IMG/VR virus record: IMGVR_UViG_3300013212_000064 | Coordinates: 1-39,728 of that record | Strand: one strand, 5' to 3' | Origin: a virus | DNA: 39,728 nt | Part shown: positions 7,441 through 28,820 of the stretch, in pieces | Layout: every line of letters starts with the position of its first letter | Numbering within the stretch: position 1 is the first letter of the stretch | The notes under the pieces: model-generated | Database searches by the model: none | The model's input: only the letters and a program-made list of their open reading frames with translations | What the model was told of the DNA's origin: nothing | Made by a program: the position numbers and the translations under genes

Positions 7441-7454
7441 TTAACGGGGTTTAA
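7441..7454 (-). promoter_or_regulatory. putative late promoter element of the W-J-I-fibre operon
   Basis: TTAA-N6-TTAA with spacer CGGGGT (+ strand), 35 bp upstream of W. It is one of four such sites, each just before a late operon. The right half overlaps the stop codon of the acetyltransferase gene. No -35 box is visible, as expected for an activator-dependent promoter. Confidence 0.65.
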
Positions 7455-7951
7455 TGATGAGCTGGTTGATACACGTACAGTGTCAAGTCTGCCGCTCCCT
7501 GCTCTGGATGGTAGGGGCTGCCTGTGGCGGTAAAACCTGCATACTTAAGGTAGTGATGCATCGCAGGGTTCCCGGTCGTCGCATATATTGCTGAGCCAGC
7601 TGCGGCCTGGATGAGTTCATGGATGATTTTTTGTCCTAATCCCTGGCCGCGATAGGCTGCCGCAACGTAAGCCCAGCCAAGTTCTAAGGGAAAATCTGTA
7701 GCAGATAGGCTGCTTCGTGCTTTTTGTTGGAACACCTTCAGACGATACTCCGTACGTGGGTTCTTCAGAGCGCCTATTGCGGCTAGGTTGCCGTCATGGT
7801 CATGACCAAACAATAGGAATTGACTGCGTTGGATTATCTCCTGCAACCCCGCACTCGCCACTTGCCCACCATCACGAACAAATTTAGCAAACTCATCAAT
7901 CTCGTCACTAGAACACTGACTTGGGCTTTTGACTGTAAAGCTGATGGGCAT
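7451..7951 (-). CDS. GNAT family N-acetyltransferase (moron-like)
   Basis: A 166-residue GNAT acetyltransferase. The acetyl-CoA-binding motif A is visible as YRGQGLGQKI at residues 100-109, preceded by the strand LGWAYVAAAY, and a C-terminal HHYLKYAGF resembles motif B. The substrate cannot be told. ATG 7951 has GGAGA five bases upstream. The gene lies between baseplate genes V and W, which are adjacent in P2, and looks more AT-rich than its neighbours, so it appears inserted. Its stop codon lies within the putative late promoter of the next operon. A role in modifying a host or phage molecule is inference. Confidence 0.85.
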   Translation of the reverse strand: MPISFTVKSPSQCSSDEIDEFAKFVRDGGQVASAGLQEIIQRSQFLLFGHDHDGNLAAIGALKNPRTEYRLKVFQQKARSSLSATDFPLELGWAYVAAAYRGQGLGQKIIHELIQAAAGSAIYATTGNPAMHHYLKYAGFTATGSPYHPEQGAADLTLYVYQPAHH

Positions 7952-7971
7952 GGTATCTCCATGGATTGGAT

Positions 7972-8607
7972 TCAGTGGGAATGATGATTGGAATTGCCGC
8001 CTGAGTCCATTACGGCACCGCTGGCGTCGATATTGCCGTCGACCTGGACGTTGCCCTCGACCTGCACGCCACCGCTGATGGTGGCGGCCGCACCAGCACC
8101 ACCCGAGCCGGCCATGCCACTCTGGTAGGTCAGTTTGCCCTTGACTAGCAGATTGCCGGTGGTCTCGGTGTCTGGCGTGTCGATCGTCACCTTAGTGCCG
8201 GCCTTGAGCAGGATCTCCGCGCCGACTTCGACGATCACCTTCTGGATGCCGCCCTTGATCGTCAGCATATGGCTGGCGCGGTCGTATTCCAGCTCGGTAT
8301 TGTCGGCAAAGCGGCGGTGCCACTTGTCGCGGCTGGCCACCGGCACCGCGTCGGCCTCCGAGAAGATCGCGCCCAGCACCACCCCATCCTCACCGCGTGC
8401 ATCCAGCAGCACGGCCACGTGCTCGCCCAGGTCGGGCAGCCAGTAGTCCTTGTCACGCTTGCTCTTACGGGTCAGTACCGGCAGCCAGGCAGTGCGCAGG
8501 TTATCCAGCTCGGGCAGGCGCACCCGCACGCGCATGCTCTTCTCGTCGACGGCGGCCACGGTGCCGAACTTCAGGGTAGAGCCAGCTTCGGCAAAGGTTT
8601 CGTTCAT
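7972..8607 (-). CDS. V: baseplate spike protein V
   Basis: A 211-residue P2 gpV-type tail spike, the central tip that pierces the outer membrane. The N-terminal OB-fold part contains GTVAAVDEKSMRVRVRLPE; the C-terminal half is a repetitive beta structure (GNLLVKGKL, GGVQVEGNVQVDGNI) ending in SNHHSH, the HxH iron-binding apex of the family. Length matches P2 gpV (211). ATG 8607 has AGAGGAAA upstream, two bases after the D stop. It is the last gene of the tape-measure operon before the inserted acetyltransferase gene. Confidence 0.93.
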   Translation of the reverse strand: MNETFAEAGSTLKFGTVAAVDEKSMRVRVRLPELDNLRTAWLPVLTRKSKRDKDYWLPDLGEHVAVLLDARGEDGVVLGAIFSEADAVPVASRDKWHRRFADNTELEYDRASHMLTIKGGIQKVIVEVGAEILLKAGTKVTIDTPDTETTGNLLVKGKLTYQSGMAGSGGAGAAATISGGVQVEGNVQVDGNIDASGAVMDSGGNSNHHSH

Positions 8608-8609
8608 GG

Positions 8610-9770
8610 TTATTTCCTCTTGGTTGTGGTGCCTACCGCCTGCACTTTGCCGTCCTTCACGCCGTACACCACCATCCCCTTGGGTGCCGCAGGCTTCTTG
8701 CTGGCGCTCTTGGCCTTGGCTGCCGGTGCTACACGCTTCAGCTCCAGCGTGGTCAGGTAGCCGTCGCTCCGGCTGATGCGGTGGGTGGCGCGGGTGATGG
8801 TGTAGTTGCCGGACAGCTTGCCCAGGTCGGCCAGTGAGATCACGCTGCCGGCGGCCAGCACCGGGTCACCCTCGACGGTGATTTCCATGCTGGTGCGGTC
8901 GAGCAGACGGCGATCGAGGTGGGCGCGGGCCTGCGCCTCGGCGGCCTGCTTGGTCGGCGCGCGGCGGGTCAGCTTGACGGTGTCGGCGCTGCTGCCCTTG
9001 CCGGCATCGGTGCTGCCGACCACGGTGGTCTCGCCGTTCTTCACGCCATACACCACCAGCTGCTTGCGCTTGGGGTCGTGGTACTTCACCTGTGCAGAGG
9101 CTGGCACGTCGCTCAGCTTGTCGGTGGCCTGCCAGCTGATCAGCTGCTCCGGGCGATAGCTGCGCACGGACTTGGCCAGATGCAGGTCGGCACCCTTCCA
9201 GAACACGAGCTTGCTGTTGTTCTCGGTCACCTTGAAGGCGTAGCCATACTCCCCGGCCAGGCGGGCGAGGAAGGCCAGATCGGTTTCGTGGTACTGCGTA
9301 GCCCGGTCGATGGCGATCGCTTCGATCTTGCCCACCAGCGTCATCTTGTGAGCCTTGGCCACGCGCTGGGCAATCGCTGCCAGCGTGATCTTCTCGTAAG
9401 CGCGACCCTTGCGGGTGCGCACAGCCTTCTGCACGCCGGTGGCCAGGGCGCGGATACGGACGGTGGACGGCGGTGCCTGGTAGCCGACCTCATCGATGTC
9501 GAAGCGGCCGACCGAGACCAGCGGCGCCCCCAGGTAGCCCAGCTTCAGCGTCAGCGCTGCGCCCTTGTCCGGGTACCAGCTGTCGAGCCAGCGGTCGTCA
9601 CTGTCCTCCAGCTCGACGTCCAGCTCATCCGACTCAGCCGACAAGTGGTCGATATAGGTGATGCCCAGCACGAAGGGGGCGATGTCGGCGGTGATCGCCT
9701 TGCCGTTGTACGCCAGGTCGAAGGCTGGCGTCGGCACATCTGCCAGCCGGTAGTCGTTCAGCGTTTCCAT
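8610..9770 (-). CDS. D: tail protein D (late control D family)
   Basis: A 386-residue member of the P2 gpD / Mu gp44 family, which forms the hub between tail tube and spike. Landmarks are ELDVELEDSDDRW near residues 49-61, LTLKLGYLG, and ATQYHETDLAFLARLAGEYGY at 157-177. An LVVYGVKNG segment at 238-246 is echoed at the C terminus as MVVYGVKDG (366-374), a small internal repeat unlike the rest of the family core. The Lys/Ala-rich tail precedes this second copy. ATG 9770 overlaps the X gene by 13 bases; the ribosome site is weak, so coupling is likely. Confidence 0.9.
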   Translation of the reverse strand: METLNDYRLADVPTPAFDLAYNGKAITADIAPFVLGITYIDHLSAESDELDVELEDSDDRWLDSWYPDKGAALTLKLGYLGAPLVSVGRFDIDEVGYQAPPSTVRIRALATGVQKAVRTRKGRAYEKITLAAIAQRVAKAHKMTLVGKIEAIAIDRATQYHETDLAFLARLAGEYGYAFKVTENNSKLVFWKGADLHLAKSVRSYRPEQLISWQATDKLSDVPASAQVKYHDPKRKQLVVYGVKNGETTVVGSTDAGKGSSADTVKLTRRAPTKQAAEAQARAHLDRRLLDRTSMEITVEGDPVLAAGSVISLADLGKLSGNYTITRATHRISRSDGYLTTLELKRVAPAAKAKSASKKPAAPKGMVVYGVKDGKVQAVGTTTKRK

Positions 9771-9970
9771 GGTGGCAGCGCCTCGAGCGCGGTGGCGGCC
9801 TCGGCCTGGATCACCGGGATGGCCAGGTTCAGGCCTCCGGGCAATACCTCAACGACAGGCACATGCGGGTTAGCCTCAATCAGCAGCGGCACGTGCTTGA
9901 CGTCGCCGTAGTAGCGCCAGGCGATCGAGTCCCAGCGGTCTCCGTCTTGGGTCAGGTGGTTCAGGTACAT
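9758..9970 (-). CDS. X: tail protein X (LysM-like)
   Basis: A 70-residue P2 gpX homologue. It has the short LysM-like fold with DRWDSIAWRYYGD at residues 11-23 and LLIEANPHVP. In P2-like phages this small protein is needed for tail assembly, probably at the tube end or baseplate. ATG 9970 follows the U stop by ten bases, and the ribosome-binding site is weak. The end overlaps gene D by 13 bases. Confidence 0.9.
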   Translation of the reverse strand: MYLNHLTQDGDRWDSIAWRYYGDVKHVPLLIEANPHVPVVEVLPGGLNLAIPVIQAEAATALEALPPWKR

Positions 9971-9980
9971 GGCGGGCCTA

Positions 9981-10910
9981 TCAGGAAAGGGCGCTGCGTG
10001 TGGCAGCCTTGGCGGCGAGGCGAGCTAGCGGCTTGGTCAGCGCGTCCAGCTCTTGCTCAGTACGGTCGGTCAGGCCACCGGCAGCCGACAGCTTGCCCTG
10101 CAGGTTGTTGCCATCAGCGCCAGACAGCAGACCAGATAGCGACGACAGGTCGCTCTTGACCCGTGCCAGCCCCTTGGCCAGCCGTCCGGCATCGCCAGCT
10201 GTGGCCGCTAGCTGCCCAAACTGCTGGATGCTGACAGTGGCCAGTCCGAGACCGGGCAATACACCCTGGGCATCGCGCATCACGCCTGGCAGGCGGCCGA
10301 TTACCGCCAATGGGTCGCGGCCAGCCAGGCTGCGCAAGCCCTGCACCGTGCGGATCACACCACTGGAAGTGGCCAAGGCGCTCTTGGCACGTGCCACAGC
10401 CAGGCCCAGACCGCCCGCGTTAGCCTTCAGCAGCGTGCTGGTCGCCTGCGGAAAGCTCTTGGCCAGCGGCACCCGGCTGGCGGGCAGCAGCGCGCTCGTG
10501 AGCCCCTGCAGCGCGGGTGCTTGGGGCTTGCGCGCCTGGCCGGTGAACTCTTTCAGCGACAGCTGTGCCTCCGCTGCCAATAGGCTACCGGCACGGTCGG
10601 TATGGCGGCCGGTGGCCTGCAGGGCGGTAATGACGAAGCGGCCCTTGTAGTCGCCGTTGCCCAGTACCAATGCCAAGGCTGCGCGAGACTGCATGGCCCC
10701 CCGTAGACGGATCAGCTCGGCTTCCGGGTCGCAGTAGGTAGCGTGAAACACCAGGTCGATGCGGATCTCGTCCAGTTTGTCACCGACGAACTGCAGCTTC
10801 GGCTTGCCGCCGATCAGCGCGTGCTCCGCGTAGTCGCTACCGAAATGCGCTTCCATGCCGTCGAAGTAGGTAATCAGGTCGAATTCGATTTCACCCAATA
10901 CGGCATACAT
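9981..10910 (-). CDS. U: tail protein U with C-terminal extension
   Basis: The N-terminal 130 residues match P2 gpU: MYAVLGEIEFDLITYFDG, then KPKLQFVGDKLDEIRIDLVFHA and the ending AQLSLKEF. The protein is 309 residues against about 159 for P2 gpU. The extra C-terminal 170 residues are rich in Ala, Leu and Gly, mostly helical and without recognised motifs. gpU takes part in tail completion. The start ATG overlaps the tape-measure stop by one base (TGATG), so translation is coupled. The family call is good; the extension has no known role. Confidence 0.85.
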   Translation of the reverse strand: MYAVLGEIEFDLITYFDGMEAHFGSDYAEHALIGGKPKLQFVGDKLDEIRIDLVFHATYCDPEAELIRLRGAMQSRAALALVLGNGDYKGRFVITALQATGRHTDRAGSLLAAEAQLSLKEFTGQARKPQAPALQGLTSALLPASRVPLAKSFPQATSTLLKANAGGLGLAVARAKSALATSSGVIRTVQGLRSLAGRDPLAVIGRLPGVMRDAQGVLPGLGLATVSIQQFGQLAATAGDAGRLAKGLARVKSDLSSLSGLLSGADGNNLQGKLSAAGGLTDRTEQELDALTKPLARLAAKAATRSALS

Positions 10911-13900
10911 CAGCTGTTACCTCCATAGCTACGGCGTTTCTTGTCGGCCTCGTAGCGCTTCATCATTCGCTCGAACTCGGCAAAGGAAAGCTGCATCGCC
11001 TGGCTGACCTGCTGCTGTACTTCCTTGGGCGTGCCGGGCTGCAGGGTGATCTGTGGGGAGAACACGATATGCATGGCTGCCGGCGCCGCACCCGCTGCGC
11101 CCGTCGTCGGGGTGGCGGCACGTGCTTCTTTCACCCGCTCGGCCAGGCGCTCCCGCTCCGGGGTACTACCAGGTGGTACGACCGTGGGTAGACGTGGCAC
11201 CAGCAGCGTTGGCGTGGCAGGTACGATGCGCTGGTGCACCGTCTGCATGGTGTTGTTCACGGACGGAAGCGCACCCAGGGCGGGTGCCGGCAAGGCGGGC
11301 TGGCCCCAGGCGGTGGTCGTGGCCAGTGCCATGCCGGCGGTAGCCTTGGCCACCATGCCAGCGGTACGACCGATGCCAATGGCCGCACCCTGGGCGATGT
11401 TGTCACCGAAACCCATAAAGACACGCGAAGGCGACTTGATACCGAGGGTGCTGGTAAACCAACCCTTGATGCTGCTACCGAACTGGACGATGGTGTCGCG
11501 GGCAGCACCAAACTTTGTTTTGATGCCATTCACCAAGCCATCGACGATGTCACCGCCGAGCCGAATGAACTTGCCCGGCAGATCGAAAACCGACTTGACC
11601 AGCCGGCCAACCCACATGACCGCATTGGCAATACCCTGGCCAACCGCCACGCCAAGGTTTCTCGCCGCACCGCCGGTGTCGTTGGCTTGCTGGAAGATAT
11701 TCTTTAGCCAGCCCCACACGGCACGCAAAGGGGGCATCAACGGGACGAATGCGGCGCTGGCCACGCTGGCCAACTGACGGAATGCCGGCATCAACGGGGC
11801 GAGCCCCGAGCGTAACCCTTGCCACAGGCCGGCGAAGAAGCCCTTGATCGGTTGCCAGTACTTGTAAACCAGGAATGCGGCACCCCCGATGACGGCGACT
11901 GCAATACCGATGGGGTTGGTCAGCAATGCAAGAGAGAACGCCCGTACCGCTACCGTCGCGGTGCGAATGCCCGAAACCAATTGCCCACCGAATGAGGCCG
12001 CCAAACCCCGCAACCCTGCAGTGGTGAGCAGGTTGGTGCGCACCCAAGGCAATGACGCAGCTGTCCAGGCGCGCATTGCTGTAGTAGCCGCCTGGAATCT
12101 GCCTAGCAAAGCACCTGCCATGGAGTTGGCTAGCCCACGAACCCCAGACATGGTCAGCAGGTTAGTGCGTACCCAAGACCACGAAGTAGCCGCCCAGGCT
12201 CGCATCGCTGCAGTAATCGCATGCACTCGGCCCAATAAGGGGCCGACCATGGAGCCAACCAGCCCACGAATCCCCGACACAGTCAGCAGGTTGGCACGCA
12301 CCCAGGCCCCTTGCGTGATGACCCAGGTACGTGTCGCAGCTACCGCCCCCCGAATGCTGCCAGTCAGCTGACCGGACATCGCACTGATCCAAGTACGGGT
12401 TGCTCCGGCTAGCTCCTTAACACCATTGCCGAAAGGTTGCAGGAGTTGACCGACTTTCATGATGCCCTCACGAAAGGTCTGCAGCCTCGAGGCTGCAGAC
12501 GTGAAGTGGCCGGTCTGCCACATGGCACGCAGCAACGTCCACTTACCCGACACAGTTGTGACTAGGGTGCTCATGGCATTGAGTGGCGATTGCACCAGGT
12601 TAATGCCATACCTGATGCCAATGAAGGCCATCTTGCCAGCCAGCAGCCCGCCTACCAAGCCAATTACACCCTTGATCACGCCGGGATGGGTCTTGGCCCA
12701 TTCACCGAAGGCTTTGATGCCAGGCTTCAGCTCTTGCAGCATCTCGGTCAGTGGTGGCAGTAGCGCGTCGCCGATGGTGATGCCGATATCCGTCATGCCG
12801 ATCTTGAATGCTTTGAGCTGCTCGGTGGCTGTCTCCATGCGCTTCTTATAGTCATCTCCCAGCAGGTCTTTCTCGCTGGCATCCTTGGCACCCTGCTGGA
12901 TGTCCTTCATCTCCTTCATATTGGCGATGGCTGGGCGAATGAACGACATGGCCTGCATGTCCTGGAACAGCTCACCGAGTTTGTAGGCTTCGGATAAGCG
13001 CTGCAGCGCGGCTTCACGCTCCTTGTCATCCTTGATGGCCATCACTTTCTGGAACTGCCCGGCGGCCTCCGGCCCTTTCTGACCCATGTACTGGGTGATG
13101 ATCTCCAGCATGGACTGCACCGGCGTCATGCCTTGGGCGCGCAAGTTCATCATGCTTTGTTTGAGATCGATGCCTGCTTTCTCGAAGTCCTTGAGGGTGT
13201 CCGGAGAGGTGATTTTCTGCAGAAAGTTCTTGAAGTTGTTGGCGGCCTCGTCGTTTGAGCCGGCGCCTTTGCGGGCGATCTGCAGCGCGGCGCCGATCTC
13301 GGCCACAGCGTCTTTGCCAGTGACACCGAGCGCTTGGAACGACGGCGATAAGGCCGGCAGCCACTTGGCCATGTCGCGGATCTCAAACTGGCCGCGCTTA
13401 CCGGCGTAGGCAAGCATATTGAGTGCGCCCTCGAAGCCCTGCTCGCCAACCTTGAGGTTGTCCTTCAGTGCGATGGCAACACTACCAAGGTCATCCATGC
13501 TGGCGCGGGTGGCGGTCGCCGCCTTGGCCATGACCGGGGCGTACTTCTCCAGCGCCTTGGCGTCCTGGATGCCGCCGGCCACCAGCACGGAGGTGCCCCG
13601 TGCCACCTCGGACTGGACTTGGTTCCACCGTACTGCCGCGTCGCGCACGGCACTGCCAAGTTTGGCCTCTTCGGCGCTGGAAAATTCGCCGGTGATGGCG
13701 GTGTCACGCATCTGATCCTGGAAACTGGCCGCCACGCGTACCGACTGCACGACCGGCGCGCCCAGGGCGAGTGCTGTACCGGCAGTTTCCATCGCTTGGC
13801 CGCGCAGGTCGGCGCGACCTGCTTTGAGCGCTTCGCCACGTGCCATGCTGGCGGTCAGTTTCTCTTGCTTGGCGTGCAGTTGATCGATGGTCTGACCGAG

Positions 13901-14113
13901 CCGTTCATACTGGCGCCGTAGCTCACCTACGTTACGGGAGGGACGGAGCATGGCGCGTGCCATGACATCGCCCAGCCGGGCGTGCCTGACGCGCAATTCG
14001 TCGGCTGTCTGGCCTAGCTTCAACGCGGTACCGCGCGCCGAGGCGAAAGCGGCCTGGAAAGTGCCGGATAGTGCCGCGCCGATCTTTACCCCGATAAGCA
14101 GTTCGTTGGCCAT
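10910..14113 (-). CDS. tail tape measure protein
   Basis: A 1067-residue tape measure protein, which sets tail length and leaves the tail during DNA ejection. The N-terminal 110 residues are coiled coil. The conserved phage_TMP region lies at about 120-400 (AASFQDQMRDTAITGEF, KTDFF-type helices). The middle carries hydrophobic helices, including NPIGIAVAVIGGAAFLVYKYW. Three tandem 43-residue repeats sit in the middle (see the repeat entry). The C terminus is Pro/Ala/Thr-rich. ATG 14113 has only a weak ribosome site. It follows the chaperone genes E/E' and precedes U, as in P2. Confidence 0.93.
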   Translation of the reverse strand: MANELLIGVKIGAALSGTFQAAFASARGTALKLGQTADELRVRHARLGDVMARAMLRPSRNVGELRRQYERLGQTIDQLHAKQEKLTASMARGEALKAGRADLRGQAMETAGTALALGAPVVQSVRVAASFQDQMRDTAITGEFSSAEEAKLGSAVRDAAVRWNQVQSEVARGTSVLVAGGIQDAKALEKYAPVMAKAATATRASMDDLGSVAIALKDNLKVGEQGFEGALNMLAYAGKRGQFEIRDMAKWLPALSPSFQALGVTGKDAVAEIGAALQIARKGAGSNDEAANNFKNFLQKITSPDTLKDFEKAGIDLKQSMMNLRAQGMTPVQSMLEIITQYMGQKGPEAAGQFQKVMAIKDDKEREAALQRLSEAYKLGELFQDMQAMSFIRPAIANMKEMKDIQQGAKDASEKDLLGDDYKKRMETATEQLKAFKIGMTDIGITIGDALLPPLTEMLQELKPGIKAFGEWAKTHPGVIKGVIGLVGGLLAGKMAFIGIRYGINLVQSPLNAMSTLVTTVSGKWTLLRAMWQTGHFTSAASRLQTFREGIMKVGQLLQPFGNGVKELAGATRTWISAMSGQLTGSIRGAVAATRTWVITQGAWVRANLLTVSGIRGLVGSMVGPLLGRVHAITAAMRAWAATSWSWVRTNLLTMSGVRGLANSMAGALLGRFQAATTAMRAWTAASLPWVRTNLLTTAGLRGLAASFGGQLVSGIRTATVAVRAFSLALLTNPIGIAVAVIGGAAFLVYKYWQPIKGFFAGLWQGLRSGLAPLMPAFRQLASVASAAFVPLMPPLRAVWGWLKNIFQQANDTGGAARNLGVAVGQGIANAVMWVGRLVKSVFDLPGKFIRLGGDIVDGLVNGIKTKFGAARDTIVQFGSSIKGWFTSTLGIKSPSRVFMGFGDNIAQGAAIGIGRTAGMVAKATAGMALATTTAWGQPALPAPALGALPSVNNTMQTVHQRIVPATPTLLVPRLPTVVPPGSTPERERLAERVKEARAATPTTGAAGAAPAAMHIVFSPQITLQPGTPKEVQQQVSQAMQLSFAEFERMMKRYEADKKRRSYGGNS
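11948..12334 (-). repeat. three tandem 129-bp repeats inside the tape measure gene
   Basis: Units at 12206-12334, 12077-12205 and 11948-12076 each encode 43 residues. They share WVR(A/T)NLLT at positions 11-18 and (I/V/L)RGL at 22-25. The shared segment AGCAGGTT recurs at 12027, 12156 and 12285, exactly 129 bp apart. A partial, more diverged copy may precede the first unit. Confidence 0.9.
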
Positions 14114-14142
14114 GTGGTCTGATCTTTTGCTATGCTGAAAAC

Positions 14143-14403: not shown

Positions 14404-14551
14404 TCTCGCGTTCGGCAACTTCGATCCAGCCCCAGTAATCGTCCATGTCCAGCGCGTCAATCTCGGACGGCTGAATCTGCAATACCGTCAGCAGTACTTC
14501 GTCCAGTGGCTTCAGTGTCTTCTCGGCCATCCACCATGCCGCGAAAAGCAT
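14360..14551 (-). CDS. tail assembly chaperone E' frame
   Basis: A 63-codon frame that overlaps the end of E and continues to the tape measure region. The sequence PSEIDALDMDDYWGWIEVAE followed by a basic helix is typical of the GpE' frame of P2-type phages, whose product is made as an E-E' fusion by ribosomal frameshifting. Relative to E this frame is +1 (equivalently -2), not -1. The ATG at 14551 inside E has no ribosome site, which supports expression as a fusion. The fusion helps assemble the tail around the tape measure protein and is not usually part of the virion. Confidence 0.75.
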   Translation of the reverse strand: MLFAAWWMAEKTLKPLDEVLLTVLQIQPSEIDALDMDDYWGWIEVAEREIKRRNEMMRSLYGR

Positions 14552-14765
14552 CTTGTAGTGCCTTGGAGTCGGCCAAATCCAGTTGATCGATATCTTCCAG
14601 CGTCAAACCAGTCAGACGGGCGAACAGGAAGTCTTCCTGATCGGCATCGTCTTTACTGAACTTGGCGGCCGCTTTCATATCGCCACGCTTGCCGCGACGC
14701 AGGGTGAGGCTTTCGATACGCTGGCCTGCAGCGTTGGTGAACGGGAACTTCAGGGGGATATGCAT
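14457..14765 (-). CDS. E: tail assembly chaperone E
   Basis: A 102-residue P2 gpE-type tail assembly protein (phage_TAC family). Landmarks are the strand IPLKFPFTNAAGQRIESLTLRR and FLFARLTGLTLEDIDQLDLADS. ATG 14765 has a strong AGGAGT site. It is the first gene of the operon E-E'-tape measure-U-X-D-V and lies 77 bp downstream of a TTAA-N6-TTAA element. Near its end a shift into the E' frame is expected; candidate sites are TTT-C (+1) and CGA-GAA-GAC (-2, Glu tRNA moving from GAA to GAG). Confidence 0.87.
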   Translation of the reverse strand: MHIPLKFPFTNAAGQRIESLTLRRGKRGDMKAAAKFSKDDADQEDFLFARLTGLTLEDIDQLDLADSKALQDAFRGMVDGREDTEATGRSTADGIADSAVRD

Positions 14766-14842
14766 GGTGACTCCTTCGTGTAGGTTGTGTCGGGGGTATG
14801 AGGTACACGAAGGATTGTCGGCTGGCACCGAGCGGAGGTCAG

Positions 14843-20225: not shown

Positions 20226-20696
20226 TTACAGCAGCTGGCGCACAGCCTGCTCGTAGGGGATACCTTTTTCGGCGGCCAGCTCGGTGGCGCGTACATGAAG
20301 GCTCAGGCGATCGGGGTCGGTGGACTTTTCGGCAAACTCGGCGGCATTGGCGTCGCCGCCTTTGCCGGACTTGTCCTTGGTGGCGGTCTCGCCAAACTCG
20401 ACTACTTTGGGCATGTCGCCGAGGAATGACTTGAAGGCGGTAGCCAGCGGCTGCCGGGCAGCACCTTCGCCAAATTCCACCGCACTCTCGCCATCGGCAA
20501 AGTCGAGGAAAGCCACCACGGCATCCTTGTGTTTCGGCGCCAGCTTGCCTTCACCGATCATCTGTTCGGCAAAGGCAGCGTGCTCGCCGTGGCGCTTGGC
20601 TGCCGCTGCCGATTTCGTCGCGGCCTCCGCTGCTGCCAGGCGTTGTTTCAGCTGGGCGTTTTCGGCCTCCAGCGCGGCCTTTTCTTCAGGGGTCAC
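20226..20696 (-). CDS. nested scaffold protein (Mu Z-like), internal start in the protease gene
   Basis: An in-frame GTG at 20696 within the protease gene is preceded by GAGGAG at six bases, better than the site of the full gene. It would give a 156-residue protein beginning TPEEKAAL after the start, consisting of the coiled coil and scaffold tail only. In Mu the scaffold gene Z lies inside I in just this way. The expression is inferred; the site is seen. Confidence 0.65.
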   Translation of the reverse strand: MTPEEKAALEAENAQLKQRLAAAEAATKSAAAAKRHGEHAAFAEQMIGEGKLAPKHKDAVVAFLDFADGESAVEFGEGAARQPLATAFKSFLGDMPKVVEFGETATKDKSGKGGDANAAEFAEKSTDPDRLSLHVRATELAAEKGIPYEQAVRQLL

Positions 20697-21359
20697 ATGA
20701 CGCTCCTCTTCGGTGGTTTGGGTCGGGGAAATAGTGGTGTCGGTAGGGTCAGCAAAGGCGGCACGCGGCGCATCGTCCTGGCGTGCAGCTTCGCGGATAG
20801 ATTCGATCTGCCAGTCGGGCACCACCTGGTCGGCGGTCTCCTGGTCGAACTTGGCCAGCAGCCATTCGCGCATGCGACGCCACAGCGAGGCATTGGTCTC
20901 CATGCCCCAATCGCCGAACTCGACCACGCCTTCTTCGGCATCGGCGAATTCGGCCTGCTTGAGGCCCTTTACGGCGGGTGGCTGGGCACCCAGAAAACCG
21001 ACATGGCGCAGGTAGTACACGCCGGGTACCGGATTGTTGGGGGCGTCGGGCAGATAGAAGCTAGCGCTAATCTTCTTGTAGCGGCCGGTGGCCACCAGTT
21101 CGGCGAAGTCGGCGTCGACCTGATGTGGGTCGGCGTTCAAACCATCGCGGCCGACGGCCAGCGACTTCACCCAGCCATAGGCTGGGGCATCGTGTTTGGG
21201 GTGTCCGATGACGATGGGCGCTTCATGCAGCGCTGGATCGTAGGCGCGGGCACTGGCCGCGAGGTCGGACTCGGAAAAATCAAGCACCACACCAGACATC
21301 GCGGTCTGGCGGCCGGGCTTGAAGATGTGCAGGGGTTTGGTCGCGTTCATGACCGACAT
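20226..21359 (-). CDS. I: phage head maturation protease with fused scaffold
   Basis: A 377-residue Mu gpI-type protein. The N-terminal 160 residues form the protease part (GVVLDFSESDLAASARAYD, APIVIGHPKHDAPAYGWV and KISASFYLPD); the C-terminal half is a coiled-coil scaffold (EEKAALEAENAQLKQRLAAAE) with a helical tail. In Mu the protease cleaves itself and the scaffold. ATG 21359 or 21350 (MNATK) are possible; neither has a clear ribosome site. A second start for the scaffold alone is described separately. It is the first gene of its operon, 27 bp downstream of a TTAA-N6-TTAA element. Confidence 0.88.
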   Translation of the reverse strand: MSVMNATKPLHIFKPGRQTAMSGVVLDFSESDLAASARAYDPALHEAPIVIGHPKHDAPAYGWVKSLAVGRDGLNADPHQVDADFAELVATGRYKKISASFYLPDAPNNPVPGVYYLRHVGFLGAQPPAVKGLKQAEFADAEEGVVEFGDWGMETNASLWRRMREWLLAKFDQETADQVVPDWQIESIREAARQDDAPRAAFADPTDTTISPTQTTEEERHVTPEEKAALEAENAQLKQRLAAAEAATKSAAAAKRHGEHAAFAEQMIGEGKLAPKHKDAVVAFLDFADGESAVEFGEGAARQPLATAFKSFLGDMPKVVEFGETATKDKSGKGGDANAAEFAEKSTDPDRLSLHVRATELAAEKGIPYEQAVRQLL

Positions 21360-21386
21360 GATCGGCGGCGAACGGAGAGCTGGCTT

Positions 21387-21436: not shown

Positions 21437-21457
21437 TTACATTACGAACTTACCGGA

Positions 21458-21667: not shown

Positions 21668-21711
21668 ATTTGCCTCTGTGACTAGTGGTTGAGGAGTGTT
21701 CAATATACCGA

Positions 21712-21742: not shown

Positions 21743-21803
21743 TTGTGATCGGGGCTAAGGGCTACCGTTGCGCGTCAGAAAGGTCACAACGCCGCCAAAG
21801 CGG

Positions 21804-22256: not shown

Positions 22257-23086
22257 GACAGCTCCTTCTTGGCCAACGTGGCCAGGTTGCCGGTATAGCG
22301 CCCAAGGTCGGGTGCCCACGCGGCGGCACCAGGGTTGTAGCTCCAACCCACATCTGGCGAGACGGTGACCGTTTTGCCTGTGGCAGGGTCAACCGCACGG
22401 AAGGTGGCCACCTCGCGCTCCTCGCCTGTTTTCACCGACACAGTTTTCATTGTGCTACCCAGCTTGCCTTCGGAGGTTTCTACCTGCACGCCCCCCGCCG
22501 CGATGTCGTCTGCTGACAGGGTGGTAACCCGGCAGCGGCAGCCCCAGCCGTTGGGCGGGTAGAACGATTGCCAGAACGGGTCATCGTGGCGCAGCACCTT
22601 GCCGTTCATCGCGCGGTGGCTGGGCCGGGTACGGCCGTCCAGGATGGCGACGTAGCGCCAGTACGGGCGGTCGTCTACGTTCTCGATCTGGGCTTGCCAA
22701 CGGCCCGCCATGTAGGCGGTCTGCAGGTTGGTACGGAAGATGGTCTGCAGGCGCCACGCGCTGCCCAGCTGCACCAGGCTGACCTCGCCGGTTTCCTCGT
22801 CGGCGTGCTCCTGCTTGCCCCACCAGCCCTTGGCCTGCAGCACCGGCGTCAGCTCCTTTTTAAACCAGGCAAAGGACTTGCCCTCGGCCAGTGCCTTTTC
22901 CACCGCTTCGCGTATGTCCTGCAGGATGTCCAGTCGCGTTGCCTTGGCCACGGTGAATGCCTGGGCTTGGGCGTCTTGCCACAGTTCCTCCCAGTGCCAG
23001 GTGATGGCGTAGCCCTTGTTCTTCAGGTATGCCACCGCCTCTTTTGGCGGCAGGCTCATGCAGTAGGCGAGATCCACTTTAGGCAT
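22253..23086 (-). CDS. F: head morphogenesis protein (Mu F / SPP1 gp7 family)
   Basis: A 277-residue minor head protein of the Mu gpF/SPP1 gp7 family. The family signature is visible as RTNLQTAYMAGRWQ (near residues 119-132), GRTRPSHRAMNGKV and PPNGWGCRCRV with its cysteines. In SPP1 gp7 binds the portal and affects DNA ejection. ATG 23086 is chosen; it overlaps the portal stop by eight bases, and its ribosome site is weak, so coupling is likely. A longer in-frame start at 23215 is rejected. Confidence 0.92.
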   Translation of the reverse strand: MPKVDLAYCMSLPPKEAVAYLKNKGYAITWHWEELWQDAQAQAFTVAKATRLDILQDIREAVEKALAEGKSFAWFKKELTPVLQAKGWWGKQEHADEETGEVSLVQLGSAWRLQTIFRTNLQTAYMAGRWQAQIENVDDRPYWRYVAILDGRTRPSHRAMNGKVLRHDDPFWQSFYPPNGWGCRCRVTTLSADDIAAGGVQVETSEGKLGSTMKTVSVKTGEEREVATFRAVDPATGKTVTVSPDVGWSYNPGAAAWAPDLGRYTGNLATLAKKELS

Positions 23087-24545
23087 GGAGGCGCCCCCAC
23101 AGCTTGGCAACAAAGAGGGCACGCGCCAGGCGCTCCTGCAGACCTGTAGCGTCCATCTGCGGGTACAGCTCGGCAAGTAGCCCCAGCAGCTCATCGGGCT
23201 GGGCACCGCCTTCAATCCGCTTTAACAGCGGCGCCAGCATCGCTTGGGCGTCGGCGTTGAGCGCGTCGGCCGACAGCGCATCGAAGGCGGCGTCCAGCGC
23301 GTCCTGGTCGGGCGCTTCCTCGCCCTCGGCAAACTCAGCCGCCGGTACGTCCGGCGTGGCAGCCTCGACCAGGTCGCCGTCCTGCAACTGGTAGGCGCGC
23401 TTGAAGTAGGCCGGCGTCAGCTTGGCGCCGGCGCGCATCAGCTTCTCGTCGCGTTCAGCCAGCACCTTGTCGACTTCCTCCTGCTCCCATAGCGAGAACA
23501 CCGGGCGGGCACCATCGTTGAAATTCAGCTCGCACACCCAGCGGATCAGGGTATTCATCGCCTCTTCAACGATGGCCGAGTCGCCGTCGCGGATGTCGCG
23601 GGTCACTTCCAGCCCGGCCTGGGCCGAGGCACGGTTGGCGGTGGCCTCGGTGGTCTGGTTCTGGCCCAAGAGCGCGATCGATACCTCGGAGCGGCAGAAG
23701 TGCAGCAGGCGCTCGTACACCTCGGCGCTACCGGTCTTGCCGGCCGCTTCCTTGATCTCCACGCTGGCATCATCAGGGATCACCGCCACCGCGTCCTGCA
23801 CCATGGCTTCCAGGTTGTCCAGCAACAGATCGGTCTCGGCCGGCGTGGCGCTGCGTGGGTGTTTGCCGATGATCCACGGCGCGCCGTACTTCTCGGTGAA
23901 TTGCACCCAGAACTTGAGGCCACCCTTCTTGAAGGTGGTGGGCCAGAACACCATGGACAGGTCGGCAAAGCCGTAGGGGTTGTCATAGCTGGCGTCCTGG
24001 CGTGGCACCAGGAACTTGCGTGCGGGTAGCTCCTCGCCCTGCAGGCGGTTGTTTTTGGAGCGAAAGCGCAGCTGGTTGGCCGCGTCGTAAACGAACCAGT
24101 CGGCCGGCTTGCCGACGATGTCGACCGGCACCACGTAGCCGCCAACCTTGCCCCACATCACCTCCATCGGCTGGTAGCCGTAGAGCACGGCGTCCAGCAT
24201 CTCGGTGATGATTCTGGATAGGTCCAGGTCGGCGAAGATGCTCTCGATCGACTTGGCCACACGACTCTTGGCCTTGTCACGATCCAGCCCCCATTCCAGC
24301 GCCTTCACCGCCGCCTTACGACGACGGACGCAGCCACCCACGTGGGCATCGGCACGCAGCTCGCGATAGACCTTGATGTCCTTACCCAGTGCCTTCAGTA
24401 CGCTGTCCGGGTTGGGCAAATACATGCCCAGGGTGTGAAAGTCGATACTGCGCTCGCGCGTGGCGATCTGTTCGGACAGCGATTTGCGCGGCTCCCCGAA
24501 CTGGACAAACTCGGTGGGGCTGACCCACATGCCTTTAGCTTTCAT
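23079..24545 (-). CDS. portal protein (DUF935, Mu gp29)
   Basis: A 488-residue DUF935 portal protein like Mu gp29, forming the dodecameric ring through which DNA enters the head. Visible landmarks are LPNPDSVLKALGKDIKVYRE near residues 42-61, RRRKAAVKALEWGL, YGYQPMEVMW and FKKGGLKFWVQFTEKYGAPW. ATG 24545 overlaps the terminase stop (ATGA) and has AGGGG upstream. Order terminase-portal-F matches Mu. Confidence 0.93.
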   Translation of the reverse strand: MKAKGMWVSPTEFVQFGEPRKSLSEQIATRERSIDFHTLGMYLPNPDSVLKALGKDIKVYRELRADAHVGGCVRRRKAAVKALEWGLDRDKAKSRVAKSIESIFADLDLSRIITEMLDAVLYGYQPMEVMWGKVGGYVVPVDIVGKPADWFVYDAANQLRFRSKNNRLQGEELPARKFLVPRQDASYDNPYGFADLSMVFWPTTFKKGGLKFWVQFTEKYGAPWIIGKHPRSATPAETDLLLDNLEAMVQDAVAVIPDDASVEIKEAAGKTGSAEVYERLLHFCRSEVSIALLGQNQTTEATANRASAQAGLEVTRDIRDGDSAIVEEAMNTLIRWVCELNFNDGARPVFSLWEQEEVDKVLAERDEKLMRAGAKLTPAYFKRAYQLQDGDLVEAATPDVPAAEFAEGEEAPDQDALDAAFDALSADALNADAQAMLAPLLKRIEGGAQPDELLGLLAELYPQMDATGLQERLARALFVAKLWGRLHA

Positions 24546-26155
24546 TGGTACCCCTGGGTGATTCTGGCACCGGTGCGACGGCGGCGGGACTTCACCGTCA
24601 CCGGGCCTTTGTTGATTTCGCGGCTGGCGTAATACGCCAACGCTACGGCCACTGCAGCATCACCGTGGCGTTTGCCCTGGTCTTCACCGGTACTGCGGCT
24701 ATCCGGGATACGAGGTACGCCCTTGACGATTTGCACCGCCCGCAAGTCGGCCAGCACATCGGCGTCTTTGGGCAGGCCATCCAGCGTGCCGTCCTCGAGC
24801 GCAGCTTTCACCGGCGGCATGTGTTCGCGGTACCAGGACTCGGTCAGCATCACCTGCTGGATACGGCTTGCACCGTAGCGCTGCATGGCGTACTCGGCCA
24901 GAAACTGGCCGTTACCACGTGCATCGAAGGCACCGCCGGTAAAGCCCGGCAAACGATCCAGCAGGTAAAAGCACACTTGTTCCTGCTGGCGGAACGGCAC
25001 ATTGCGCAGCTCCAGGATGAAGGGCACACGGCGTACCAGGTTTTGCTGCTGGATCAGCGGCACGTGCACGGTAAGGTCGCCGGTGCGGCCAAAGTCTTCG
25101 CCGTTAAAGCTGATGGCATCTGTCGGTAGTGCAGCCAGCAGCGGCGCCAGATGTTCCTCCAGCCAGTCGCGGCAATCGGCGATGCGGATGTGGTCGGGCA
25201 GCAGCTCGAAGCCCGGCGGGCACGCCCAGCGCAGCACCGGGGTATCGGCCGACATGCGCGACTCCACCAGGGCACGGGACAGCCAGGCACCGCCGCTGTG
25301 CTTGGGAATGCAGCCGTATTCTTCCTCGGCAGACTCGGTGTTGGGCGCGTTCTTATACAGGTCGTCGCGCCATTTCTTTTCGCCTTCCGGCGACCAGGTC
25401 TGGCCGGTGACGTAGCAGATGCGCTTGTACAGGCCATCCGCGATGGCATCGTCCAGCGTGATGCGGTGGATGCTGTAATCCTTGCGGCCGGCGCGGGCGT
25501 CTTCGATGTACTGGTTAAAAAGGTTCTCCACGCCATTGTGTGTGCTGATCAGCCGTACCTTGTTGCCCCACATGGTCAGTGCCAGCGCGGCCTTCAGCAG
25601 CTCTTCCAGGCTGTCGTGGAAGGCCGCCTCGTCGATCACTACATCGCCCTGCAGGCCACGCAGGTTGGATGGCCGGCTGGATAGTGCCTGGATTTTGAAG
25701 CCGGACTTCGGGAAGCGGATCATGTAGGTGAGGATTTCTTCCTGCTTGCCCTCATCCCAGAAGGTCTGCTCGTACACGTCGGCCTGCGCCAGCTCGTTGA
25801 ACGCCTTGGCGAACAGTGCACAAGCGGCGATGTACTCCAGCGCCATTTCCTTCTTGCTGCCTACGTAGAAGGTATTGCAGCCCTGGCGGCGGCGCGGCCG
25901 GGCCGCCTTCACCACGTTGCGGCCGGCCTCTGCCCAGGTCAGGCCGGTACGGCGCGACTTCTCCGCGAACATGATCTGGGCTTCGTCTTCGAACCAGCGC
26001 TGCTGGTACGGCAGGAATACCGGCTGATTAGAAGGGATGGCGTCGGCCACCTCTTGCGGCACCACCACGCCGGCCAGCGCCAGCTCCTCCGCCAGGTCGA
26101 TCTTGCGGGGGATGCCGACGGACACCAACGATAAGTTCTGCTGCTTGGCCATCAT
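24542..26155 (-). CDS. terminase large subunit (Mu gp28 type)
   Basis: A 537-residue packaging ATPase/nuclease of the Mu gp28 type. The ATPase has the Walker-A-like AEKSRRTGLTWA at residues 64-75 and Walker B VVIDEAAF at 172-179; the nuclease domain carries the acidic motif FNGEDFGRTGD near 350 and the late acidic segment HGDAAVAVALA. It packages phage DNA and, in transposable phages, cuts host sequence beyond the ends. Two adjacent ATGs (26155, 26152) are possible; AAGGA lies close upstream, and the first overlaps the preceding stop. Confidence 0.93.
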   Translation of the reverse strand: MMAKQQNLSLVSVGIPRKIDLAEELALAGVVVPQEVADAIPSNQPVFLPYQQRWFEDEAQIMFAEKSRRTGLTWAEAGRNVVKAARPRRRQGCNTFYVGSKKEMALEYIAACALFAKAFNELAQADVYEQTFWDEGKQEEILTYMIRFPKSGFKIQALSSRPSNLRGLQGDVVIDEAAFHDSLEELLKAALALTMWGNKVRLISTHNGVENLFNQYIEDARAGRKDYSIHRITLDDAIADGLYKRICYVTGQTWSPEGEKKWRDDLYKNAPNTESAEEEYGCIPKHSGGAWLSRALVESRMSADTPVLRWACPPGFELLPDHIRIADCRDWLEEHLAPLLAALPTDAISFNGEDFGRTGDLTVHVPLIQQQNLVRRVPFILELRNVPFRQQEQVCFYLLDRLPGFTGGAFDARGNGQFLAEYAMQRYGASRIQQVMLTESWYREHMPPVKAALEDGTLDGLPKDADVLADLRAVQIVKGVPRIPDSRSTGEDQGKRHGDAAVAVALAYYASREINKGPVTVKSRRRRTGARITQGYQ

Positions 26156-26721
26156 TCCTTACCCAGCAGAATGCGGCGGATGCGGGCTTCCATCTGCTCG
26201 CTCATACCATCGGCGCCGCGCATTTCTTCCAGCTTTTCTTCCTGCTCGGCCAGCAGCTGGGCACGGGCCTCGCGCTCGATGCGGGCCTGCTCGTCCAGAC
26301 GGAAGCGTTTCTGGTTCACGCTGGCGCGGGCCAGAGTGGCAATGTTCTTGGCCGCACTGGATAGCAGACCGATGCGCTCGGCCGGGTCGACGTCTTCGTC
26401 TCCGGCCTCCTGCAGGTTGACGATGCTCTCGAACAGCTCGGTCTGCACCAGGGCGATCACGGCTTCGGAGCGGGCGTCCTGGTCGTCGGCCGCACCTTCT
26501 GTCAAGAGACGCGCCGCCTCGGTGCTGGCCTTGATGGCAGCAAAACGACGCTCGATCTTCTGGCCGTAGCGGTGGATGGCGGATTTGCTGATAGCGAAGC
26601 CCTTGTCGCGCAGCGCGGCTTCCAGCAGCTGGTAGCCACTGAAGTTGCCCTCCACCAGAGACTTATCCAGCCACTCTCGTACCGACTGGGGCAGTTGGCC
26701 AACACTGTTGCGGCGGGCCAT
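26152..26721 (-). CDS. Mu gp27-like protein (DUF3486), probable terminase small subunit
   Basis: A 189-residue DUF3486 protein in the Mu gp27 position. The start MARRNSVGQLPQSVREWLDK and the helix-turn-helix-like segment YQLLEAALRDKGFAISKSAIHRYGQKIE are typical, followed by a long helical, coiled-coil C terminus. It lies next to the large terminase and is thought to be the DNA-recognition subunit. ATG 26721 is preferred because the family begins there; an upstream in-frame start at 26754 is not. Confidence 0.88.
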   Translation of the reverse strand: MARRNSVGQLPQSVREWLDKSLVEGNFSGYQLLEAALRDKGFAISKSAIHRYGQKIERRFAAIKASTEAARLLTEGAADDQDARSEAVIALVQTELFESIVNLQEAGDEDVDPAERIGLLSSAAKNIATLARASVNQKRFRLDEQARIEREARAQLLAEQEEKLEEMRGADGMSEQMEARIRRILLGKE

Positions 26722-26722
26722 A

Positions 26723-27034
26723 TCACTGGCTCCAGTATTTCTGCGGCCGGGCAATGCCGGGTTCGCAGTCGATGGTGTACTCGGCGATGTCGGTACCGTA
26801 GCGGGTCAGGCTGCCCCACCAGCGCCCGGATGGCTCCTTGCGCAGTTCGACCAGGTCACGGTCGGACAGGTAGTCCAGCTCGCGCCGGACTTCGATCGGC
26901 GTCACGTCCGGGTAGATAGACTGCATGGTCATCTGGATAGGCCCTTCGGACAGCTCTTCCGGGCGGGCGTTGTACAGCGCCAGCAGCAGATACCAGCGCA
27001 GGCTTTCACGGCGTACTTTGGCTTGATCAATCAC
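26723..27034 (-). CDS. Mu gp26-like protein, winged-helix-like
   Basis: A 103-residue protein in the Mu gp26 position between the gp25-like and gp27-like genes. The pattern LRWYLLLALYNARPE, then PDVTPIEVRRELDYLSDRDLVEL and a beta wing (GRWWGSLTRYG) suggests a winged helix, which would bind DNA or a partner protein. The start is GTG at 27034, with AAAGGGG upstream and an eight-base overlap with the gp25-like gene. Its role in head assembly or packaging is unknown. Confidence 0.8.
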   Translation of the reverse strand: MIDQAKVRRESLRWYLLLALYNARPEELSEGPIQMTMQSIYPDVTPIEVRRELDYLSDRDLVELRKEPSGRWWGSLTRYGTDIAEYTIDCEPGIARPQKYWSQ

Positions 27035-27404
27035 GGTTGGCCCCTTTTAGTTGCCAGTTCTCAAGGCGCAACGCCACCGCATCAAGCTTGGCCTCGATCA
27101 CGGTCTGGTTGCGGATATAGTCTTCGCGGCGCACGTACTGCAGCGGCAGCTCGGCTTTCCACTGCAGGAAGTCGCGGTCGAGTGCCTGTAGTCGCGCCAC
27201 CACTTTTTGCTCTTCTTCTGCATGACGATTCAGTGTGGCCTGCATGGCGGTGTCGGCCGTCTTGCGGGCGTCTTCCAGCGCCTGGAAGCGCTCGTCCAGG
27301 CGACGGTCTATCTGGCTGAACAGCACCTTGGCGCCGCCGGCGACAAAGCCAAAGAAAGCCAGCAACAACGTGAGTAGCTGCCAGAACTCCACTTGTACGG
27401 TCAT
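27027..27404 (-). CDS. Mu gp25-like protein (DUF2730)
   Basis: A 125-residue protein with one N-terminal membrane segment (LLTLLLAFFGFVAGGAKVLF, about 10-29) and a long coiled coil (about 30-115). This is the DUF2730 architecture of Mu gp25, found after lysis genes in many transposable phages; its function is unknown. ATG 27404 has GGGAG upstream and overlaps the Rz stop (ATGA). It is placed between the spanins and the packaging genes. Confidence 0.83.
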   Translation of the reverse strand: MTVQVEFWQLLTLLLAFFGFVAGGAKVLFSQIDRRLDERFQALEDARKTADTAMQATLNRHAEEEQKVVARLQALDRDFLQWKAELPLQYVRREDYIRNQTVIEAKLDAVALRLENWQLKGANRD

Positions 27405-28003
27405 GGCTTGCTCCCTTCATGCCAGTCCAGCAGGCGGTTCAACTGTGACTCGATGTCGCGGCAGCGCTGTCCGTAGTCGGTGATGTGTTCCAGGATGTCA
27501 GCCTGCTGTACGCCGGCATCAAGGGCTTCGGCGGGGTCGGCCGCATCAGCAGCTCCGGCGGCAGGGATGGTTGGGGGCACAGAGGCGGCACCGATGGCGC
27601 CGTTGTACACGCCGACAAAGCCATGAGTGAAAACGCACTGAGGAACAGGCTGCAGCGGCGCGCCAGGCGCCGGGCGGTATTGGCTGGTGACACGGGTGAT
27701 TCTCCGTTTCAGTTGGTCGGTCTCTTCGGCGTGCCGGGCACGCTCCTGGAGCAGCTGGAAACCCAGCTGGTTGGCGGTGGCGGTCAGCTCGCGCTCTTTG
27801 TCGAGGGCCTGCCCGGCGGCGGTAGCCATCAGCAAGGCGTGGTCACGCTTGAGGTTGGCCAGCGCGGTCTCGCCCTTGGCCTGGGCCGAGCGGTGGCCCA
27901 GGCCGTAGCCCCCGGCACCGGCCGCCAGGGTGGTGATGGCGACCAGGCCAAGGCCGGCCAGTGCTGCCTGCAGGCGGGTGGCGATGAAGGGGGTATCAAG
28001 CAT
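27401..28003 (-). CDS. Rz: inner-membrane spanin (Rz-like)
   Basis: A 200-residue protein with an N-terminal membrane anchor (residues 10-35) and a long periplasmic coiled coil with LANLKRDHALLMATAAGQALDKERELTATAN-type heptads, the layout of Rz i-spanins. ATG 28003 has a perfect GGAGG. The o-spanin gene lies nested in its 3' half in another frame, as in many phages, which strengthens the call. Together they fuse inner and outer membranes in the last step of lysis. Confidence 0.85.
   Translation of the reverse strand: MLDTPFIATRLQAALAGLGLVAITTLAAGAGGYGLGHRSAQAKGETALANLKRDHALLMATAAGQALDKERELTATANQLGFQLLQERARHAEETDQLKRRITRVTSQYRPAPGAPLQPVPQCVFTHGFVGVYNGAIGAASVPPTIPAAGAADAADPAEALDAGVQQADILEHITDYGQRCRDIESQLNRLLDWHEGSKP
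27439..27693 (-). CDS. Rz1: outer-membrane spanin lipoprotein (Rz1-like), nested in Rz
   Basis: An 84-residue lipoprotein entirely inside the Rz gene in another frame. A basic start and hydrophobic segment lead to the lipobox LSAC at about residues 26-29, followed by a proline-rich mature part (APSVPPLCPQPSLPPELL), the classical Rz1 make-up. The start is GTG at 27693, with GGAGA seven bases upstream. Later ATGs would destroy the signal sequence. Confidence 0.88.
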   Translation of the reverse strand: MSPANTARRLARRCSLFLSAFSLMALSACTTAPSVPPLCPQPSLPPELLMRPTPPKPLMPAYSRLTSWNTSPTTDSAAATSSHS

Positions 28004-28226
28004 TGCCGACCTCCTGCTTGTCGCGCTTGGAGGCAATCCAGCTGCGGGCAGCCGAGTAGCCGCCCACCACGCCTAGATAGACCAGCCAGGTATCGGTAGT
28101 CAGCTGGCCAGCCACGCCCTGGTAGATGAACATGCCAGTGGCAGAGGCGCAGGCCACATTGGCCCACAGCTTGCTGTGGCTCAGACGGCCGCTGGCTGGG
28201 TTGGTAAACAGATCAGACAGTCGCAT
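27996..28226 (-). CDS. putative holin
   Basis: A 76-residue protein with two hydrophobic segments (about LWANVACASATGMFIYQGV and WLVYLGVVGGYSAARSW) and a basic C terminus, between the amidase and spanin genes. A small membrane protein here is most simply the holin that releases the endolysin, though two-segment proteins of this kind could be an antiholin or accessory lysis protein. ATG 28226 has GGAGT upstream. The end overlaps Rz by eight bases. Confidence 0.68.
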   Translation of the reverse strand: MRLSDLFTNPASGRLSHSKLWANVACASATGMFIYQGVAGQLTTDTWLVYLGVVGGYSAARSWIASKRDKQEVGNA

Positions 28227-28230
28227 GGGC

Positions 28231-28749
28231 TTACTCCTGCAGGCTGCCAACCAGTGGTTTCATCCCACCCTGTAGCCAGTCGGCCACGTTGAAGCCAGGG
28301 CAGGTTTTGAGCCACTCGCCAGGCTCTACGGTGCCGTCGCCATCCTTGTCTGGCGACAGGTCACGGTGGCCTACCACGCGGGCAGCCGGGTACTGCGTCT
28401 TCAGCGCTTTTACCAGGCTGTGTAGCGCATCCCACTGCGCCCGGGTAAAGCGGCTGGTGCCTACCAGACAGATGCCGATGGATTGAGCGTTAAAGCCCTG
28501 AACGTGCGCGCCGACCTCGGCAATGCCTCGGCCGGTGTGCTTGCTGCCATCGGTATCCAGCACGAAGTGGTAGCCGATGGCGGGTAGATGCGGGTTGAGC
28601 TGTGCCAGCGCAGCCGGCTGGCGTTTGAAGCCACGCTGGGCATGCCAGCTATCGATGACCGCTGCGGCGCTTTTGGTAGGGCTACCCAGCTGGCGGCCAT
28701 TGGCGCTGGCCGAGCAGTGGATAACGATGCAGTTGATGGTGCGAGACAT
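28231..28749 (-). CDS. N-acetylmuramoyl-L-alanine amidase (endolysin)
   Basis: A 172-residue amidase_2 family endolysin that cuts the amide bond between muramic acid and the peptide. Zinc ligands are visible as H11 (VIHCSAS), H128 (VVGHRDLSPD) and C150 (KTCPGF), with Y60 in GYHF. The segment DKDGDGTVEPGEW (134-146) has the spacing of an EF-hand calcium loop. No signal peptide is present, so it needs a holin. ATG 28749 has GGAGGGG upstream. It is the first gene of the lysis operon, 57 bp after a late element. Confidence 0.94.
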   Translation of the reverse strand: MSRTINCIVIHCSASANGRQLGSPTKSAAAVIDSWHAQRGFKRQPAALAQLNPHLPAIGYHFVLDTDGSKHTGRGIAEVGAHVQGFNAQSIGICLVGTSRFTRAQWDALHSLVKALKTQYPAARVVGHRDLSPDKDGDGTVEPGEWLKTCPGFNVADWLQGGMKPLVGSLQE

Positions 28750-28806
28750 GATCCCCTCCAGACGTGAACATGCCGCCATTGTCGGCGGCATATTCGGGAG
28801 GGGCTT

Positions 28807-28820
28807 TTAATCGAGATTAG
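28807..28820 (-). promoter_or_regulatory. putative late promoter element of the lysis/packaging operon
   Basis: TTAA-N6-TTAG (spacer TCGAGA on +), the fourth copy, with one mismatch. It lies six bases past the end of the membrane protein gene and 57 bp upstream of the amidase gene, matching the place of Mu P-lys. Confidence 0.6.

Follow-up and report, generated by a model that had tools for sequence, protein, structure and literature searches.

In phage Mu the promoters Plys, PI, PP and Pmom are activated by C and the promoter Pm is activated by Mor, which binds a dyad at -51 to -36 with its centre at -43.5 (PMC4287176). In the Mu sequence, 24 bp separate the Pmom dyad TTATGCCCCAATAA from the downstream TAAGAT; no clear C dyad was found by pattern at PI and PP, so the Mu spacing is that of Plys and Pmom only. 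For gene e of phage T4 it has been described that the longer early transcripts fold an inhibitory structure, with a lysozyme synthesis that is about 100-fold lower, and that the late transcripts lack the 5' part (PMC3014915). The Burkholderia phage KS10 has an annotated Mor gene directly behind a relative of Mu gp16 (GemA) (PMC2628397). Here, the virus record IMGVR_UViG_3300013212_000064 of IMG/VR was analyzed over its positions 1 to 39,728 (39,728 nucleotides, the whole stretch is called the window below), and a TTAA-N6-TTAA dyad was characterized that occurs upstream of four late operons. We give a probability of roughly 80% to the reading that the four sites serve as late promoters in a transposable phage of the BcepMu type, that they are activated by a protein of the Mor/C family, and that each of them lies inside an inverted repeat that hides a translation start.

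TTAA dyads, spaced hexamers and the Mor/C gene

The four late operons of the window begin with the genes for an amidase (lysis/packaging operon), the head maturation protease (head operon), the tail assembly chaperone E, which belongs to Phage_TAC_7 (tail operon), and the baseplate wedge protein W, which belongs to GPW/gp25 (baseplate operon). Three exact copies of TTAA-N6-TTAA are present in the whole window, at 7441, 14843 and 21387. Dinucleotide shuffles of the window contained a mean of 0.05 exact dyads, and three were never reached. The fourth dyad, at 28807, has one mismatch and is weak when taken alone, since about two one-mismatch matches are expected in the window; two others were found at 23212 and 30551, both of them intragenic. 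It was accepted as real because a second block, a hexamer at a distance of 23 bp, is common to all four sites. In a leave-one-out profile each of the four sites was top-ranked among all non-training positions on both strands. The initial annotation of this DNA had listed three exact dyads and one mismatch copy, with fewer than one expected by chance, in front of the W, E, protease and amidase operons. Both the counts and the gene identities were right, and the dyad observation is confirmed and wider than in that account. The fixed -10 block, the start codons at the predicted +1 and the hairpins had been missed.

The second block is located exactly 23 bp downstream of each dyad on the minus strand, which is the coding strand, and reads CACCAT, GACAAT, GATCAT or GACAAT (Table 1). 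The shared pattern is SAYNMT, i.e., it agrees with a -10 element in its second base (A) and its sixth base (T) and deviates from the consensus in the first. When the hexamer is assumed to represent -12 to -7, the predicted +1 lies 7 nt after it, and the dyad spans -49 to -36 with its centre at -42.5. A sigma-70-type pair of hexamers was not found at the four sites and no -35 could be recognized, and simple sigma-70 promoters were rejected for this reason. Two features of the Mor/C class are present, namely a pair of half-sites that are spaced by ten bases and precede late operons, and a constant distance between the dyad and a weak -10 without a sigma-70 -35. As read from the sequence, the layout is that of a Mor/C-activated promoter with a different half-site, because the dyad centre and the distance to the -10 resemble those of Mu Mor and Pmom.

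The consensus of 74 sites revealed that the conserved element is wider than TTAA-N6-TTAA; it reads roughly TTAAACYCGATTAAAAGNC, with an AAG-N-C tail at the downstream half-site. The hexamer, on which these 74 sites were partly selected, begins with C or G in 71 cases, where consensus promoters have a T. The shared non-T first base is a weakness that would make the promoters activator-dependent.

The initial annotation had also proposed that the phage has its own set of late-activator sites, like that of Mu C but with a different half-site, and had named a motif search in related phages as a test. The proposal is supported, and the motif was found at the same junctions in the relatives. Protease orthologues were taken from bacterial genomes and viral contigs, and a dyad with at most one mismatch was detected upstream of the protease gene in 81 of 118 non-redundant loci, compared with 12 of 343 control windows. 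Upstream of W, the dyad was detected at 29 of 34 loci and at none of 34 controls. A first survey of 30 related loci and the window yielded 40 non-redundant oriented dyads; 12 of them had the hexamer pattern at offset 23, and no other offset was represented more than twice. The composite motif of dyad and hexamer (up to one mismatch) was found in 36 of 39 records, commonly in three to five copies per record and mostly on the same strand, and the reversed pattern gave one match across all 39. Judged from these surveys, dozens of Mu-like prophages have conserved the motif in front of these genes. No close DNA relative was found in the phage collection searched. At several loci of relatives (G012:18290-18361, G037:10542-10613 and others) a single dyad is flanked by a hexamer on either side, each at offset 23, and such a palindrome might drive divergent transcription.

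A Mor/C gene inside the window was rejected, because no match to PF08765 was found there. By synteny it is placed beyond the right end, where the initial annotation had suspected the activator as one of two options. Over its last 3.8 kb the window matches a prophage of a beta-proteobacterial genome with 96.5% identity; in this relative, 1.05 kb separate the cut point of the window from the start of mor. The record ends (39728) inside the early operon. In the relatives mor lies directly behind gemA, as in Mu, and the encoded protein matches the solved Mor and C proteins of Mu. PF08765 is present in 14 of 20 related records and in 29 of 30 records of a second set that includes Mu; it occurs once per relative (one match is split in two) and twice in Mu. 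Three records are devoid of the composite motif, and one of these has no Mor match, while the other two have short or weak ones only. The geometry and this co-occurrence point to the dyad as the binding site of Mor/C. With one Mor/C protein, the cascade would therefore be shorter than that of Mu.

Start codons and inverted repeats at the predicted promoters

Gene starts were anchored by homology, and the distances were counted from the start of the dyad. In the first set, the W start was found at 49 nt in all five lineages kept, and the protease start at 49 or 50 nt in 20 of 40 lineages. This is 7 or 8 nt past the -10-like hexamer, i.e., at the predicted transcription start. A further scan with W proteins, which has a few contigs in common with the first set, yielded 34 non-redundant loci, and again the start was located at 49 or 50 nt, in 33 of the 34 cases. 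The first set has 25 leaderless starts, and all of them are without an upstream Shine-Dalgarno sequence. The late mRNAs of W and of many proteases should thus be leaderless, because the start codons sit at the predicted +1. The E gene always has a leader, often with a Shine-Dalgarno sequence, and the same is true for the amidase gene.

All four sites of the window lie within inverted repeats (Table 1). For the amidase element, folding gave -34.7 kcal/mol for the read-through RNA versus -3.4 kcal/mol for the late RNA, and the CCCCTCC partner of the Shine-Dalgarno sequence is located in the promoter spacer. For the E element the values were -21.9 and -2.8 kcal/mol, respectively. The E stem has 10 bp, and six bases of its 5' arm CCTTCGTGTA are situated before the predicted +1 (14807). 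In the W and protease stems the -10 is in or near the loop. Thus, the behavior known from T4 e was seen in silico, i.e., the read-through RNA pairs the start codon or the Shine-Dalgarno sequence, and the late-promoter RNA does not.

A first covariation test with all 183 loosely defined sites gave weak signals, because the arms of leaderless and leadered sites sit at different places. After the sites had been split by start position, the signal was clear for the leaderless class, with a score of 0.398 versus 0.206 +/- 0.043 for shuffles (0 of 500) and a maximum at slide 0. At these sites the sequence of the arms varies and the complementarity is kept. At the leadered sites no pairing around the -10 was found, and pairing was confined to the stretch just upstream of +1, which pairs with the Shine-Dalgarno region.

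Partition-function folding was performed in silico with short RNAs without ribosomes, and the read-through RNA was compared with shuffles of its own upstream sequence. The pairing of the start region was above that of the shuffles, with z values of 6.4 for the leaderless and 4.3 for the leadered sites; when the upstream parts were swapped between sites, the z values for pairing were 5.4 and 7.0. The W set repeated the pairing of the start region (z 5.1, 0 of 100 shuffles). The starts of control genes (sheath, capsid, portal, terminase) had z values of -1.1 to 0.9, bar one portal comparison. The partner positions, counted from the dyad start, peaked at 29-36 for leaderless and at 42-48 for leadered sites, both upstream of the predicted +1.

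Table 1. Features of the predicted late promoters, their first genes and the early operon in the window
Feature	Position	Strand	Basis or remark
Putative activator dyad, lysis/packaging operon, CTAATCTCGATTAA (one mismatch)	28807..28820	-	pattern and leave-one-out profile
-10-like hexamer GACAAT (amidase), 23 bp after dyad	28778..28783	-	fixed offset in relatives
Nested inverted repeat, amidase: outer CCCCTCC/GGAGGGG (Shine-Dalgarno), inner ATGCCGCC/GGCGGCAT around -10	28753..28803	-	folding
Amidase	28231..28749	-	corrected start 28749, Shine-Dalgarno GGAGGGG
Putative activator dyad, head operon, TTAATCCCAGTTAA	21387..21400	-	pattern and leave-one-out profile
-10-like hexamer GATCAT (protease)	21358..21363	-	fixed offset in relatives
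Inverted repeat pairing protease start region in read-through RNA	21341..21376	-	fold -14.4 kcal/mol; covariation in relatives
Head maturation protease	20226..21350	-	corrected start 21350; ATG one base past predicted +1; leader 0-1 nt
Putative activator dyad, tail operon, TTAAAGCCGTTTAA	14843..14856	-	pattern and leave-one-out profile
-10-like hexamer GACAAT (E)	14814..14819	-	fixed offset in relatives
E stem CCTTCGTGTA/TACACGAAGG, 3' arm with Shine-Dalgarno	14772..14814	-	folding
Tail assembly chaperone E	14457..14765	-	corrected start 14765
Putative activator dyad, baseplate operon, TTAAACCCCGTTAA	7441..7454	-	pattern and leave-one-out profile
-10-like hexamer CACCAT (W)	7412..7417	-	fixed offset in relatives
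Inverted repeat pairing W start region in read-through RNA	7395..7432	-	fold -23.5 kcal/mol; W set
Baseplate wedge W	7040..7405	-	corrected start 7405; ATG at predicted +1, predicted to be leaderless
Cut early operon	35920..39728	+	96.5% identical relative continues into gemA, mor

Proposed mechanism and alternative readings

According to the favored reading, a dimer of the Mor/C family, encoded by one gene behind gemA at the end of the early operon, would bind TTAA-N6-TTAA near -42.5. The bound activator would help the host RNA polymerase to start at a weak promoter that has the -10-like SAYNMT and no recognizable -35. With one Mor/C protein instead of Mor and then C, the early genes would lead directly to the four late operons. 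In read-through RNA from further upstream, a hairpin would form and mask the start codon of W and protease, or the Shine-Dalgarno sequence of E and amidase. Only RNA born at the late promoter would be translatable, because the promoter is embedded in the hairpin and the 5' arm is thus absent; in the cases of W and protease it would be a leaderless message with the AUG at or next to the 5' end. That a whole clade of Mu-like phages gates its late genes twice, by a single Mor/C protein and by a start-hiding hairpin at every late promoter, with leaderless messages for W and many proteases, seems fairly probable, but less so than the reading for the window.

Several observations weigh against this reading. 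The half-site is TTAA instead of the TTAT/ATAA of Mu, and the gap is 23 bp instead of 24 bp. The relatives are not fully independent despite filtering, and a few contigs recur in the W set. One control comparison, that of portal starts in the leaderless-type window, had a z value of 2.1, and the effect at the leadered sites was modest (0.61 vs. 0.56). If transcription started about 6 nt further upstream, the stem of the leadered genes would be inside the late mRNA. In addition, folding revealed stems upstream of the E dyad (followed by TTTT) and the protease dyad only, and these may already stop most of the read-through; a terminator scan with loops limited to 8 bases gave no match at the sites.

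It is conceivable, albeit unlikely, that the promoters are activated by Mor/C, but that the repeats are features of the DNA without any role in the RNA, e.g., a cruciform, an aid to melting or the operator of a second protein. The repeat of the leaderless sites is indeed centred on the -10 hexamer, and melting is a sensitive step, since the step that Mu C influences at Plys, PI and PP is the formation of the open complex (PMC4461284). However, the arms differ in sequence and yet stay complementary, unlike a protein operator, and the pairing of the leadered sites is not around the -10; the RNA model alone fits both classes. Slightly less likely still, the stem of the leadered genes could be a 5'-terminal hairpin of the late mRNA, with a function in stability or translational control, and transcription would start about 6 nt further upstream. 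The start of the leadered 5' arm right after the hexamer (partner peak 42-48) is in line with this, but the dyad centre would then be at about -36.5 and not at the -43.5 of Mor, a start that adjoins the -10 would be unusual, and the leaderless class, which has its 5' arm upstream of the -10, would not be explained.

The window encodes several helix-turn-helix (HTH) proteins, and another phage protein (an HTH regulator at 32030-33975 or 38314-38580) could bind the sites, for example as a repressor of the late genes. This was judged very improbable, as the sites agree with those of Mor/C in half-site spacing and in placement with respect to the -10, motif and Mor/C are found together across the records, and promoters without a -35 let one expect an activator. 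That a short AT-rich word recurs by chance in this GC-rich genome has a negligible probability as an explanation: one-mismatch dyads do occur elsewhere in the window, but the shuffle, control-window and reversed-pattern tests speak against chance, and the conservation at the same junctions already refutes it.

Directly upstream of the lysis operon, late-strand genes (28827-32479, minus strand) encode phrog_5023, a nucleoid-associated protein, a membrane protein and an HTH protein. The GC content of this stretch drops to about 48%, compared with 62% around it, and the genes are likely acquired cargo. Possibly, these cargo-like genes are a source of read-through into the amidase gene in the lysogen.

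Implications and comparison with known phages

Neither the dyad motif nor the combination of promoter-in-hairpin and leaderless starts at all late operons of a prophage clade was found in the literature searched, which did not include the original BcepMu paper. With these results, a late-gene switch that can be tested is proposed for a large clade of proteobacterial Mu-like prophages, for which no late promoters are described in the same literature, and an orphan Mor/C family is linked to a specific DNA site. The results suggest that the promoter-in-hairpin arrangement, familiar from a handful of T4 genes, applies generally to the late operons of these prophages; in the lysogen, lysis and structural genes would then not be expressed from read-through RNA. 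Furthermore, natural leaderless mRNAs are predicted for virion genes, and many annotated start codons would have to be corrected.

The Burkholderia transposable phages BcepMu and KS10 have related morphogenesis genes; a late promoter set is not described for them in the same literature, again without the original BcepMu paper. With Mu the window shares half-sites that are ten bases apart and overlap the -35 region, a weak -10, and four late operons including those for lysis and protease (gene I in Mu). By synteny, a Mor/C-family activator and the position of mor directly behind gemA are probably common to both as well. In contrast to Mu, there is probably one Mor/C gene instead of two, E and W take the place of P and mom as first genes of operons, and start codons are found at the predicted +1. 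From its TTAA half-site, the set reads as a variant of the Mu C regulon and not as the Mu C regulon itself. At Plys of Mu (L072:10406-10480), a CCTGA that precedes the -10 is able to base-pair with TCAGG, the Shine-Dalgarno sequence of lys, and the fold is -20.7 kcal/mol versus -3.1 kcal/mol for the late-start RNA. The promoter-in-hairpin rule may extend to Mu itself.

T4 gene e, and also soc, 49 and I-TevI, have a hairpin over the Shine-Dalgarno sequence or the AUG in long transcripts and a late promoter in the DNA of the 5' arm (PMC3014915), and the sites described here are predicted to be alike in both respects. Unlike in T4, all four late operons examined have this arrangement, the promoters are of host type and depend on Mor/C rather than gp55 in the proposed mechanism, and the late RNAs of W and protease are predicted to be leaderless; the silencing is deduced from sequence here. 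Taken together, the promoter type is a variant of the Mor/C class of Mu, and the hairpin logic is already known from T4.

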